50,369 bases of DNA from Nocardioidaceae bacterium. Lineage in GTDB: Bacteria > Actinomycetota > Actinomycetes > Propionibacteriales > Nocardioidaceae. Each line of letters opens with the position of its first letter. Positions within the stretch are counted from its first letter, which is position 1. Location: the NCBI GenBank assembly GCA_030655315.1, contig JAURVT010000056.1, positions 1-50,369 on the forward strand, given 5' to 3'. Positions 12,364 to 50,369 of this stretch are shown here, in pieces. Below the pieces are notes generated by a model. That model had not been told where the DNA came from and searched no databases. It saw only the letters and a program-made list of their open reading frames with translations. A program made the translations under genes and the position numbers.

Positions 12364-13743
12364 TCAGCGACCGTCGAGCACCGCGCGGATGCGCGCCAGC
12401 CGGTCGGCGTAGTCGGCCTCGGCGCCACGGCGCGTCGGCTGGTAGTAGCGCGCGTCGGCGACGACGTCGGGCGCGTGCTGCTGGGGGGCGACGCCTCGCG
12501 GGTCGTCGTGGGCGTACCGGTAGTCGTGGCCGTGGCCCAGCTTCTTGGCGCCGGAGTAGTGCGCGTCGCGCAGCGCGGGAGGCACCGGACCGATCTTGCC
12601 GGCGCGCACGTCGCCGAGCGCCGCGCCGATGGCGGTGGTGATCGCGTTGGACTTCGGCGCGAGCGACAGCGCGACGACGGCCTGGGCCAGCGTCAGCTGC
12701 GCCTCGGGGAAGCCGATCATCGCCACCGCCTGCGCCGCGGCCACGGCGACGGGCAGCGCCGTCGGGTCCGCCATCCCGATGTCCTCGCTGGCCAGGATCA
12801 TCAGCCGGCGCGCGATGAACTTCGGGTCCTCCCCCGCCTCGACCATCCGCGCGAGGTAGTGCAGGGCGGCGTCGACGTCGGAGCCGCGGATCGACTTGAT
12901 GAGCGCGCTCGTGACGTCGTAGTGCTGGTCGCCCTGGCGGTCGTAGCGCACCGCGGCCCGGTCGACCGCGAGCGAGGCCGTCTCGACGTCGATCTCGGTG
13001 GTCTCGCGCGAGGCCGCCGCGCCCGCCGCGGCCTCGAGGTAGGTGAGCACGCGCCGGGCGTCGCCGCCGGCGAGCCGGACGAGGTGGTCGCGCGCGTCGT
13101 CGGTGATGGTGACCGCGCCGCCGAGACCGCGCTCGTCGGCCACCGCGCGGTCGAGCAGCTCGGCCACGTCGTCGTCGGTGAGCGACTCGAGCGTGAGGAG
13201 CAGCGACCGTGAGAGCAGGGGCGAGATGACGCTGAAGTGCGGGTTCTCGGTGGTGGCGGCGACCAGCGACACCCATCGGTTCTCCACCCCGGGGAGCAGC
13301 GCGTCCTGCTGGGCCTTGCTGAAGCGGTGCACCTCGTCGACGAACAGGACGGTCTCGGAGCCGCCCTGCGCGAGGGCGCGGCGGGCGCCCGCGATGACCT
13401 CGCGCACCTCCTTGACGCCCGCCGACACCGCCGACACCTCGACGAAGCGGCGGTTCGTCTGGTGGCTGACGAGCGAGGCGATCGTGGTCTTGCCGGTGCC
13501 CGGGGGCCCCCACAGCAGGATCGTCATCGGTGCGTCGCCCGCCACCATCCGGCGCAGCGGCGACCCGGGCGCCAGCAGGTGCTGCTGGCCCACCAGCTCG
13601 TCGATCGTCCGGGGCCGCATCCGCACCGCGAGCGGCGCCGACGCGAACGACGCGTCCGCCAGGCTCCCGCCACCGGCCGCCGGTGCGGCCACGGGGGTCG
13701 CGGGGATGTCGAACAGCCCGTCGTCCGACCCCGTGTCGCTCAC
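12364..13743 (-). CDS. rarA: Replication-associated recombination protein RarA (MgsA)
   Basis: AAA+ ATPase acting at stalled replication forks. The 459-residue protein has, in order, an N-terminal [17 protein letters not shown] box (about 41-57), Walker A GPPGTGKT (79-86), Walker B FVDEVHRF (about 135-141), a sensor region (TTENPHF), and the C-terminal tetramerisation domain ([34 protein letters not shown] region). It starts at GTG 13743, six bases after a TAGGGT box. It is monocistronic; the 22-bp repeat array lies immediately upstream. Confidence 0.94.
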
Positions 13744-13749
13744 CGTCCC

Positions 13750-13755
13750 ACCCTA
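13750..13755 (-). promoter_or_regulatory. -10 box of a leaderless promoter for rarA
   Basis: TAGGGT on the minus strand, six bases before the GTG at 13743. Any -35 element would fall inside the first unit of the 22-bp array that begins at 13764. Confidence 0.5.
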
Positions 13756-13763
13756 GACATCCC

Positions 13764-13899
13764 GCGGTCCGGCGGTTCTGCTGGTGCCGTCCGCCAGTTC
13801 TACCGGTCCGATCCGTCGGTTCCGCCGGTGGGTGCCGGCAGAACTGACGGATCGGACCAGCAGAAGTGCCGGACGGGACCGGCGGAAGTGACGGATCGG
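13764..13899. repeat. Mirror-symmetric array of six 22-bp units
   Basis: Three 22-bp units on the minus strand (13764-13785, 13786-13807, 13808-13829), a 4-bp spacer, then three units of the same family on the plus strand (13834-13855, 13856-13877, 13878-13899), with no gaps between units in each half. The shared core is GAASYGVCGGAYSG, with GAA and CGGA invariant. By eye, 51 of 66 positions pair between the two halves. The array fills the space between the rarA promoter and the dppF stop codon at 13902. A second family member lies at 49206-49298. Confidence 0.9.
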
Positions 13900-13901
13900 G
13901 G

Positions 13902-48011: not shown

Positions 48012-49184
48012 CTACTCCCCCAGCAGCGCGTCGACGAAGTCCTCGGGGACGAACGGCGCGAGGTCGTCGGCGCCCTCGCCGAGGCCCACGAGCTTGACCG
48101 GGACGCCGAGCTCGCGCTGGACGGCGATGACGATGCCGCCCTTGGCGGTGCCGTCGAGCTTGGTCAGCACGATGCCGGTGACGTCGACGACCTCGGAGAA
48201 CACACGGGCCTGGGTGAGGCCGTTCTGGCCGGTGGTGGCGTCGATGACCAGCAGCACCTCGGTGACCGGGGCCTGCTTCTCGACGACGCGCTTGACCTTG
48301 CCGAGCTCGTCCATCAGCCCGGACTTGGTGTGCAGTCGGCCGGCGGTGTCCACGATGACGGTGTCGACGCCCTCCTCGCGCCCACGCTTGACGGCCTCGA
48401 ACCCGACGCTCGCCGGGTCGCCGCCCTCGGGGCCGCGGACGGTGTCGGCGCCGACGCGCTCGCCCCACGTCTGCAGCTGGTCGGCCGCGGCGGCGCGGAA
48501 CGTGTCGGCCGCGCCGAGCAGCACCCGGCGGTCCTCCGAGACGAGCACGCGCGCGATGCGTCCCACGGTCGTGGTCTTGCCGGTGCCGTTGACGCCGACC
48601 ACCAGGACGACGCCGGGGACGCCGTCGGCGCCGGTCGAGCCGAGCTCGCGGTCCATCGACGGGTCGACGGTCGCCACCAGCTCCTCGCGCAGCACCGCAC
48701 GCGCCCGGACGGGGTCCTCGACACCCTCGACGCGCAGACGGGTGCGCAGCCGCTCCACCAGCTCCTGGGTGGCCGCGACGCCGACGTCGGCACCGATCAG
48801 GGTGTCCTCGATCTCCTCCCAGGTGTCGTCGTCGAGGCGGTCCCGGCCGATCAGGGCCATCAGTCCCCGGCCGAGGGTGCCCTGGGATCGCGACAGGCGC
48901 TCGCGCAGCCGTTGCAGCCGTCCGGCGGCCGGCTCGGGACGATCGAGCGTGGTGGTCGGTGCGGCGGGCTCCGGCTCCTCGGGCTCGGGGAGCACGGGCT
49001 CGACCGTCTCGGGCTCGCGCTGGTCCTGCTCGGGGTGGGTGATCGCGTCGCGCGTCAGCTCGTCGGCCTCGGCGGGCGGCGGGAGCGCCCGGTCGCTGCG
49101 CCGGGACACGAGGAGGGCGAGCCCGCCTCCGAGGACGACGACCGCGGCGGCGATCGCGAGGACGAGGATCAGGGTGTCGGACAC
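48012..49184 (-). CDS. ftsY: SRP receptor FtsY
   Basis: Membrane docking GTPase for Ffh. With the GTG at 49184 it has 390 residues: an N-terminal transmembrane anchor (TLILVLAIAAAVVVLGGGLALLV), a Pro/Glu-rich acidic linker to about 90, the N domain (LRERLSRSQGTLGRGL), and the G domain with GVNGTGKTTTVGRIA, IVDTAGRLHTKSGLM and TKLDGTAKGG. A GTG three codons earlier (49193) is also possible. I prefer 49184 because TAGGGT lies seven bases before it, the leaderless spacing seen in other genes here. Confidence 0.93.
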   Translation of the reverse strand: MSDTLILVLAIAAAVVVLGGGLALLVSRRSDRALPPPAEADELTRDAITHPEQDQREPETVEPVLPEPEEPEPAAPTTTLDRPEPAAGRLQRLRERLSRSQGTLGRGLMALIGRDRLDDDTWEEIEDTLIGADVGVAATQELVERLRTRLRVEGVEDPVRARAVLREELVATVDPSMDRELGSTGADGVPGVVLVVGVNGTGKTTTVGRIARVLVSEDRRVLLGAADTFRAAAADQLQTWGERVGADTVRGPEGGDPASVGFEAVKRGREEGVDTVIVDTAGRLHTKSGLMDELGKVKRVVEKQAPVTEVLLVIDATTGQNGLTQARVFSEVVDVTGIVLTKLDGTAKGGIVIAVQRELGVPVKLVGLGEGADDLAPFVPEDFVDALLGE

Positions 49185-49190
49185 GGCGTC

Positions 49191-49196
49191 CACCCT
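49191..49196 (-). promoter_or_regulatory. -10 box of a leaderless promoter for ftsY
   Basis: TAGGGT on the minus strand, seven bases before the GTG at 49184. The four-unit 22-bp array begins 10 bp upstream, so the -35 position falls inside it. Confidence 0.45.
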
Positions 49197-49205
49197 ATGC
49201 GTGCC

Positions 49206-49298
49206 CCCGTCCGTCAGTTCCGCTGGTGCGGTCCGGCACTTCCGCCGGTCGACAGCCTGCGGAACTGCCGGACGGCACCTGCCGAACCGCCGGATCGC
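49206..49298. repeat. Mirror-symmetric array of four 22-bp units (second family member)
   Basis: Two units on the minus strand (49206-49227, 49228-49249), a 5-bp spacer, and two on the plus strand (49255-49276, 49277-49298). All keep the GAA and CGGA core of the array at 13764-13899. It overlaps the last 85 bases of the cydC reading frame and ends just upstream of the ftsY promoter. Confidence 0.88.
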
Positions 49299-50369
49299 GG
49301 GGAGGGGTGGCGGGCGAGGTCGAGGACGGCGTCGGCGTGCCGGAGCCAGCCGCGCTGGTGGGTGACGACGACGAGCGACCGCTCGGGCGCCAGGGCCAGG
49401 AGGTCGCGGACGAGCAGCTCGCCGGCGGCCTCGTCGAGGTGCTCGGTGGGCTCGTCGAGCACGAGCACCGGACGGTCGGCGAGCAGCATCCGGGCCAGGC
49501 CCAGACGCTGTCGCTCGCCGCCCGAGAGCCGTCCGCCGTGCTCGCCGACGGGGGTGTCGAGGCCCCGGGGCAGCGTGCGGACGAGCTCGCCGAGCCCGGC
49601 CCGTGCCAGCGCCGACCGGAGGTCGTCGTCGGTGGCGTCCGGCCGGGCGACGCGGAGGTTCTCGCGCACCGTGGTGTCGAAGACGTGCTCGTCCTGGCCG
49701 AGCAGGCCCACGTGACGACGCACCTCGTCCCCGCCGAGGTCGGCGTAGGCGACGCCGCCCAGGTCGACCGCCCCCTCGCGAGCCGGCAGCAGCCCGAGCA
49801 GCACGTGGGCGAGGGTGCTCTTGCCGCAGCCGCTCGGGCCCACGACCACCACCACCGACCCGGTCGGCACGTCGAGGTCGACGTCGCGCAGCACGTCGGG
49901 GCCACCGGGCCAGCCCGCGCGCAGGCCGCGCACCGAGAGCGCGGTGCCACCCGGGGTGGTCCCGGGAGCGCCGTGGCCCGCACCGGGATCGGGGCCGTCC
50001 TCGGTGAGCGCGCGGAGCCGGGCGACCGACGCGCGGGTGCGGATCTCGTCCTGCGCCGTGGCCGGCAGCGCCTCCAGCAGCTCGGCGAGCACCAGGGGCG
50101 CGAGCACGACGACGGCCAGCAGCACCGCCCGCAGGGACCCCTCGGCCACGGCGGCCGTGCCCAGCCAGAGCAGGCTGCAGAGCGCCACGCCGAGCACGAC
50201 GCGCACCAGCGCCGCCCCGAGACCGTCGAGCCAGGCCGAGCGACGGGCCGCCGCGCGGAGCCGGTCGCCGGTGCCGCGCATCGGGGCGAGGACGATGTCG
50301 CGGGCGTCGTGCGCGGCGAGCTCGGGGGCGGCCCGGACGGCCTGGGTCGCGACCGCGGCGAGGTCGCCG
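49214..50369 (-). CDS. cydC: Thiol reductant ABC exporter subunit CydC (N-terminal part outside window)
   Basis: The 3' part of an ABC exporter half-transporter; the frame is open to the window edge, giving about 384 residues. The visible part holds the last membrane helices (SAWLDGLGAALVRVVLGVAL, GSLRAVLLAVVVLAPLVLAE) and the ATPase domain with Walker A GPSGCGKST, signature LSGGERQ, Walker B VLDEPTEHLD and H-loop VTHQ. The divergent membrane domain with AHDARD and VLAELLEALPATAQD favours CydC, which with CydD exports cysteine/glutathione for cytochrome bd assembly; a generic exporter is the alternative. The last 28 codons are encoded by the 22-bp repeat array and read as a Gly/Ser/Arg tail. 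Confidence 0.8.
   Translation of the reverse strand, partial: GDLAAVATQAVRAAPELAAHDARDIVLAPMRGTGDRLRAAARRSAWLDGLGAALVRVVLGVALCSLLWLGTAAVAEGSLRAVLLAVVVLAPLVLAELLEALPATAQDEIRTRASVARLRALTEDGPDPGAGHGAPGTTPGGTALSVRGLRAGWPGGPDVLRDVDLDVPTGSVVVVVGPSGCGKSTLAHVLLGLLPAREGAVDLGGVAYADLGGDEVRRHVGLLGQDEHVFDTTVRENLRVARPDATDDDLRSALARAGLGELVRTLPRGLDTPVGEHGGRLSGGERQRLGLARMLLADRPVLVLDEPTEHLDEAAGELLVRDLLALAPERSLVVVTHQRGWLRHADAVLDLARHPSPRSGGSAGAVRQFRRLSTGGSAGPHQRN

Follow-up and report, generated by a model that had tools for sequence, protein, structure and literature searches.

A 50,369-nucleotide stretch of a Nocardioidaceae genome (contig JAURVT010000056.1, here called the window; the genome is G000) contains a cydC gene that runs into a block of short repeats and stops inside it, next to the start of ftsY. 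The locus raises two questions: what kind of element this repeat block is, and how CydC came to end within it.

The array at the cydC/ftsY junction

The cydC gene (49217-50368, minus strand) is truncated by the window end and matches TIGR02868 at 339.2 bits (cut-off 329.05). The adjoining gene, ftsY (48012-49184, minus strand; TIGR00064), probably starts at a leaderless GTG, and its closest named matches include Aeromicrobium, Kribbella, Nocardioides and Marmoricola, which places the window in Propionibacteriales and presumably in Nocardioidaceae. At the junction lies a head-to-head array of 22-bp units (49206-49298, assigned to neither strand), recognized by its sequence, by BLAST against its own genome, by unit assignment and by a predicted RNA hairpin. 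The left arm consists of unit 1 (49211-49230, plus strand) and unit 2 (49233-49252, plus strand), and the right arm of unit 3 (49252-49271, minus strand) and unit 4 (49274-49293, minus strand, sense to cydC). Their position weight matrix scores are 28.7, 20.2, 16.9 and 22.2, respectively, and are descriptive, as the matrices were trained on the very loci that they score.

The first-pass annotation had placed a four-unit array over the last 85 bases of cydC with the stop codon in its terminal unit, and both points are confirmed: the minus-strand frame ends at 49214, within the arrangement of units starting at 49211 and 49233 (plus) and 49252 and 49274 (minus), and the TCA at 49214-49216, a TGA stop on the cydC strand, falls in the outermost left unit. 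The word 'mirror' should be read with caution: the two arms form inverted repeats, and the positions that vary carry mismatches.

A BLAST search of the array against its own genome returned 22 matches at E ≤ 0.01, the best non-self match having an E value of 5.5e-21. The two-unit pattern with up to three mismatches yields 41 matches in this genome versus one for the reversed pattern; a single unit at three mismatches is not above its control (92 versus 124 matches), so that the evidence for an array is the 22-bp clustering. An Rfam scan of 48900-49600 gave four microRNA matches, all far under the cut-offs, and none above a gathering score.

Arrays in the same genome

The genome carries at least 12 array loci, to which 56 units were assigned. 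The units share a conserved skeleton, CCGnCnnTTCnGCnGG, with a 22-bp period, and the outer ends often read CCCGCGATCCG...CGGATCGCGGG. The second array in the window (13761-13901, no strand assigned) has three units in each arm. It is flanked by rarA and by a gene for an ABC ATPase of the oligopeptide type, which has its TGA 5 nt away from the outermost unit.

At two loci the arms enclose a single gene, which encodes a small multidrug resistance protein at C1:89938-90475 and a D-glutamate cyclase/hydro-lyase at C23:116225-117112. We rejected the idea that the latter is cargo, since two of 29 relatives (G032 and G007) have the gene at the same place without a G000-type unit. G007 carries a different, longer tandem repeat in about three copies (L353:1915-2109) between the hydro-lyase gene and its neighbor, at the place of an array arm in G000. 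At L058:3985-4130 (contig C11 of G000) a tRNA-like gene, read by eye, is followed by a second, incomplete copy of its 3' half, of the kind seen at integration sites, with an array directly behind. Degenerate GATCCGTCGCTCCCACCCCACC-type units at 22-bp spacing, either decayed or different, precede regular arrays at L053:3545-3600, near position 3960 of L062 and near position 4135 of L058.

Distribution across genomes

The window array is one of a class of extragenic elements present in several genomes of the family. Their 22-bp tandem units usually form two facing arms, and they lie mainly behind stop codons. The G000 two-unit pattern (three mismatches) finds mostly single, chance-like matches elsewhere, but the matches in G022, G042 and G015 belong to arrays built from other units. 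We searched 341 genomes with a looser exact pattern (CRSTTCYGS twice, 22 bases apart) and took three or more matches to indicate an array-bearing genome. Twelve genomes qualify, G000 included, versus one for the reversed control: G198 (36 matches), G204 (29), G110 (19), G000 (16), G745 (12), G015 (5), G183 and G269 (4 each), and G022, G042, G145 and G165 (3 each). Any match at all was found in 42 of the 341 genomes and a reversed-control match in 36 (table count), so a single match per genome means little.

Among 396 genomes across the phylum searched at three mismatches, the matches listed include pairs one unit apart in G479 and G468 besides G000; in G479, from another family of the phylum (L160:1946-2072), and in G468 (L161), likewise outside the family, these are 22-bp arrays that run in one direction and have a comparable TTC core. 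The exact 41-base pattern has no match in the wider genome contig set. A BLAST search with the window-array DNA returned nothing from 293 other genomes of the family, although this is a weak search in which three candidates were scored per listed genome.

For closer study we sampled 20 regions from each of G110 and G198, a subset of the listed loci in which G204 and G745 are not represented. These regions contain 87 units in G110, which read CGAGCRGTCACTTCTGCACC..., and 146 in G198, which read CGAGTCGGCACTTCTGGCG.... Where both arms are present they face each other: the order minus unit before plus unit is absent from all 45 clusters of these regions and from the 12 loci of G000. Several clusters are one-armed, and one G198 arm has ten units. 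In G198, two 195-residue frames with identical ends (L261:1362-1949 and 2243-2830) flank a one-arm array, a duplication with the array in its middle. A search of one collection of open-access literature found no description of this array class, which is no proof that none exists.

Position relative to genes

The 45 clusters of G110 and G198 divide into 21 at convergent, 21 at tandem and three at divergent junctions, and gene 3' ends make up 63 of the 90 flanks. These counts come from our own gene caller and are approximate, as it accepts very short frames at L231 and L263 and misses the minus-strand genes to the right of L055 and L056, where the stops of open frames lie 5 nt from the array. 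Counted along contiguous stretches of G110, G145 and G188, arrays occupy nine of 85 non-overlapping convergent junctions, nine of 288 tandem and four of 113 divergent ones, a bias toward convergent junctions with similar rates at the other two types. Stems of at least 12 pairs occur at array-free junctions in 14/85 convergent, 50/288 tandem and 3/113 divergent cases.

Stop codons keep a preferred distance from the arrays in two genomes. Of 37 arms in G110, 11 have a stop exactly 4 nt ahead of the first conserved base, versus 0.46 per position further out. Of 23 arms in G000, 11 have one 4-7 nt ahead of the unit, versus 0.18 per position further out; this count includes the left side of L061, where the TAG is inside a TAGGGT box and is probably no stop. 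No such phase is seen in G198. We read it as erosion of the spacer between two constrained sequences, although it could instead reflect targeting.

The ends of the arrays are the best kept. Outermost units score 36.8 versus 28.0 for innermost units in G110, and 28.1 versus 23.0 in G198. Arms that have no long frame ending within 60 nt of them score nearly as well as those that do, at 31.7 (7 arms) versus 32.9 (30 arms) in G110 (p = 0.23) and 25.0 (17 arms) versus 26.5 (19 arms) in G198 (p = 0.049).

TAGGGT boxes

Both arrays in the window adjoin a TAGGGT box, as the first-pass annotation had stated; one (49192-49197, minus strand) precedes the ftsY GTG at 49184 by 7 nt, and the other (13750-13755, minus strand) precedes the rarA GTG at 13743 by 6 nt. 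In the G000 stretches examined, no -10-like box precedes starts more often than TAGGGT, which stands 5-8 nt ahead of an RTG at 9 of 121 gene starts, versus 28 of 4400 control windows. Four of these nine starts (rarA, ftsY, the L054 pirin gene and the left gene of L061) face an array, most of the stretches having been chosen for holding arrays. The suggestion that arrays and promoters are linked as a rule is not supported: at L062 and L053, two examples of convergent loci, the array has no gene start facing it. If arrays stand at the borders of transcription units, the adjoining genes need promoters of their own, so that a promoter next door is expected; the link looks incidental and does not show that arrays make promoters.

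Evolution among close relatives

We compared array sites among related genomes, locating the units of G145 and G188 with the G110 matrix. At one locus an array lies behind the same ilvD-like gene in G110, G145 and G285; G188 has only CGACCGGTCG there, which looks like the two outer ends fused and may represent either loss of the array or an earlier state. Ten G110 arrays from a 200-kb stretch were followed in two relatives. G145 has seven clear counterparts and one by position, with one array absent and one unmappable. In G188 four are present (one by position), two are missing but for end remnants, the place of another is occupied by a long hairpin, one is absent, and two could not be resolved. 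The long hairpin is uninterrupted and takes the place of the array at a convergent gene pair. At the G188 site matching the G110 array at 2576495, the array flanks lie ∼5.4 kb apart, an insertion or rearrangement at an array site. G110 (L227:2270-3430) and G198 (L264:2081-2292) share one gene pair with an array, the units of which differ; a 263-residue frame lies between the arms in G110 and nothing in G198.

Outer and inner units behave differently at shared sites. At position 17 of the unit, all 13 outermost units of G145 have A and 15 of 16 outermost units of G110 have C, whereas the inner units of G145 have six A and seven C. In a permutation test on three genome pairs, with only 13, 5 and 5 unit pairs, orthologous outer units are hardly more similar than shuffled pairs (0.860 versus 0.844, p = 0.12; 0.845 versus 0.836, p = 0.37; 0.809 versus 0.806, p = 0.49). 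For inner units the values are 0.752 versus 0.709 (p = 0.015), 0.827 versus 0.755 (p = 0.017) and 0.818 versus 0.780 (p = 0.10), which supports a memory of the locus in the inner units of two of the three pairs. The outermost units seem to evolve in step across the genome, as if they were recognized. Fast flipping at a few variable columns could also erase locus memory without any homogenizing process, and would explain part of the pattern, but not the base common to the outermost units of G145.

Mobility

These comparisons also bear on an alternative, that the arrays are a REPIN- or MITE-like repeat, selfish or once mobile, which spreads through the genome and survives best behind genes, with outermost units that were the ends recognized by a transposase and inner units that decay. 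The better preservation of the ends, the presence and absence differences between close relatives, and the largely different sites occupied in G198 and G110, with one clearly shared gene pair among 20 regions each, all fit such an origin. The concerted change of outermost units at shared sites does not, as this is not expected of dead insertions. The Y1 transposase family (PF01797) is missing from all ten array genomes searched, two of which are under 95% complete, although it was detected in five of 14 controls, and on this basis an identity with RAYT/REPIN was rejected. No consistent target-site duplication flanks the mirrored arrays (16 + 13 + 11, 40 in all): with 98 combinations of offset and length scored per genome, z reaches 2.6 at most, and the best four combinations of each genome include none shared by all three. 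Two exact array patterns are absent from viral contigs, and the window array has no match in phage and plasmid records. The Y1 transposase, target-duplication and viral, phage and plasmid results speak against current mobility, but not against a mobile past, and on balance we consider the mobile-repeat explanation unlikely.

Folding of the arrays

A second alternative is that the arrays act as RNA, as a hairpin behind the stop codon that ends transcription, protects the mRNA or slows ribosomes, in the manner described for E. coli REPs lying within 15 nt of a stop. The window arrays fold strongly (z = -5.6 at 49206-49298 and -8.7 at 13761-13901), as do arrays generally, with median z values of -6.5 in G000, -9.4 in G110 and -6.7 in G198. 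The hairpin that stands in place of an array in G188 (-58.8 kcal/mol) is about as stable as the G285 array (-59.6 kcal/mol), and a G285 hairpin at another array site reaches -50.6 kcal/mol. The phase of the stops in G110 and G000 would suit an RNA element, and so would the slightly better preservation of G198 arms behind stops, a difference that leans toward an effect of the upstream gene's transcript.

The pairing of the arms, however, is not tuned. Permuted arms form duplexes at least as strong as the array's own in fractions of 0.90 (G000), 0.94 (G110) and 0.84 (G198) of permutations, for 9, 12 and 16 arrays, respectively. At variable positions opposed units match no better than units from different loci (0.417 versus 0.459, p = 0.80), the value for same-arm neighbors being 0.624. 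Some arrays have a single arm, and although the window array forms a stable hairpin, no terminator-like site with a T run lies in 48900-49600, the region scanned around this array. Long perfect palindromes are unstable, and imperfect inverted arms may be favored for that reason. We consider an RNA element, too, an unlikely account of the arrays.

Origin of the CydC tail

The C-terminal tail of CydC reads ...RSGGSAGAVRQFRRLSTGGSAGPHQRN, and its last ∼27 residues are repeat-encoded (49214-49298, minus strand, including the stop), the cydC frame remaining open through all four units. The tail lies past the TIGR02868 model, which ends at residue 338 of the 384-residue fragment. In a survey of 110 ftsY loci from two genome sets (30 + 80, our own locus included), a cydC match lies upstream of ftsY in 15, again with our own, allowing a gap of up to 800 nt (the value reached at L068). 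All 14 relatives have a CydC that ends 19-32 residues earlier, at position 323-336 where the window protein reaches 355, and the array is absent from each of these loci; cydC and ftsY overlap or nearly touch in several relatives, as judged from extrapolated starts. The exact two-unit pattern occurs at none of the 109 other ftsY loci. The tail is thus array-encoded and without counterpart in these relatives, and the proposal of a repeat-derived tail stands.

The first-pass annotation had suggested that the element inserted at, or expanded into, the 3' end of the gene. The simplest route to the tail would be the loss of the cydC stop in front of a pre-existing array, since arrays at other loci often lie directly behind stop codons. 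CydC most likely lost its own stop ahead of the array, and the tail would be a by-product, probably functionless. That the tail is a functional, selected addition is very improbable, for although the frame stays open across four units, nothing similar is found in the 14 relatives and at many other loci the gene stops ahead of the array.

A proposed boundary element recognized in trans

The best reading of the arrays, in our view, is that they are REP/BIME-like boundary elements recognized in trans. An array would mark the boundary of transcription units, most likely as a two-way terminator or insulator, a role suggested by the 3'-end bias and by the hairpin standing in an array's place. The outermost units at each end would be recognized in trans. 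Binding of a roadblock protein to the DNA is likelier here than recognition of a tuned RNA hairpin, although the inverted arms can still form a hairpin. That arms without a nearby stop are nearly as well kept fits both ends being read as DNA better than a pure 3'-UTR hairpin. The inner units may be older, decaying copies. Taken as a whole, with the mark on transcription units, the recognition of outermost units, the decay of inner ones and the loss of the CydC stop, we give this reading a probability of about 45%. Several points count against it: most convergent junctions are array-free (76 of 85), each arm faces a gene start at L057, a divergent locus, and G198 has no stop phase. The 3'-end bias could also be mere survival where insertions are least harmful.

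Among known systems, the array class resembles REP/BIME elements, which are likewise short extragenic repeats with many copies per genome and inverted pairs. REP/BIME elements are found mainly between convergent and tandem genes; the arrays favor convergent junctions, with similar rates at tandem and divergent ones. The loci and units counted above (12 and 56 in G000; 87 and 146 units in 20 regions each of G110 and G198) agree with short, extragenic repeats in many copies. REP elements are imperfect palindromes with a GTAG or CGTC tag; by eye, G000 units are partly palindromic and those of G198 and G110 hardly so. GTAG REP termini often supply a stop codon (PMC3733652), and some REPs lie within 15 nt of a stop (PMC12306157). 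The present arms differ in being direct tandem repeats of a constant 22-bp period with a species-specific base shared by the outermost units. REPINs are extragenic and consist of two inverted repeats that form a hairpin (PMC3116915). The arrays resemble the REPIN-RAYT system to that extent, but have several units per arm and no Y1 transposase in the ten array genomes.

The MIRUs of Mycobacterium are also actinobacterial intergenic minisatellites that touch stop and start codons; their units are longer and only directly repeated, and are not known to follow a head-to-head plan. Transposon ends of the Tn7/Mu type carry several 22-bp sites at each, inverted end, but the arrays have no consistent target duplication and change in concert at shared sites. 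The Sal-box arrays behind eukaryotic rRNA genes, repeated directional protein sites that stop the polymerase, offer an analogy only and are unrelated.

Fast turnover of sequence under a fixed plan, period and placement, with end units that change together, suggests recognition in trans. A more specific proposal, which we regard as possible but doubtful, is that head-to-head 22-bp arrays serve some Nocardioidaceae as end marks for many transcription units and are bound by a putative, fast-evolving DNA-binding factor, that this factor and the outermost units co-evolve by species, and that the result is a roadblock-terminator or boundary system interchangeable with hairpin terminators. The cydC case shows how array elements can give proteins new C-terminal tails, probably after the loss of a stop codon. 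GC-rich actinomycetes often lack U-tract terminators, and the array class offers a testable entry to how they separate neighboring genes.
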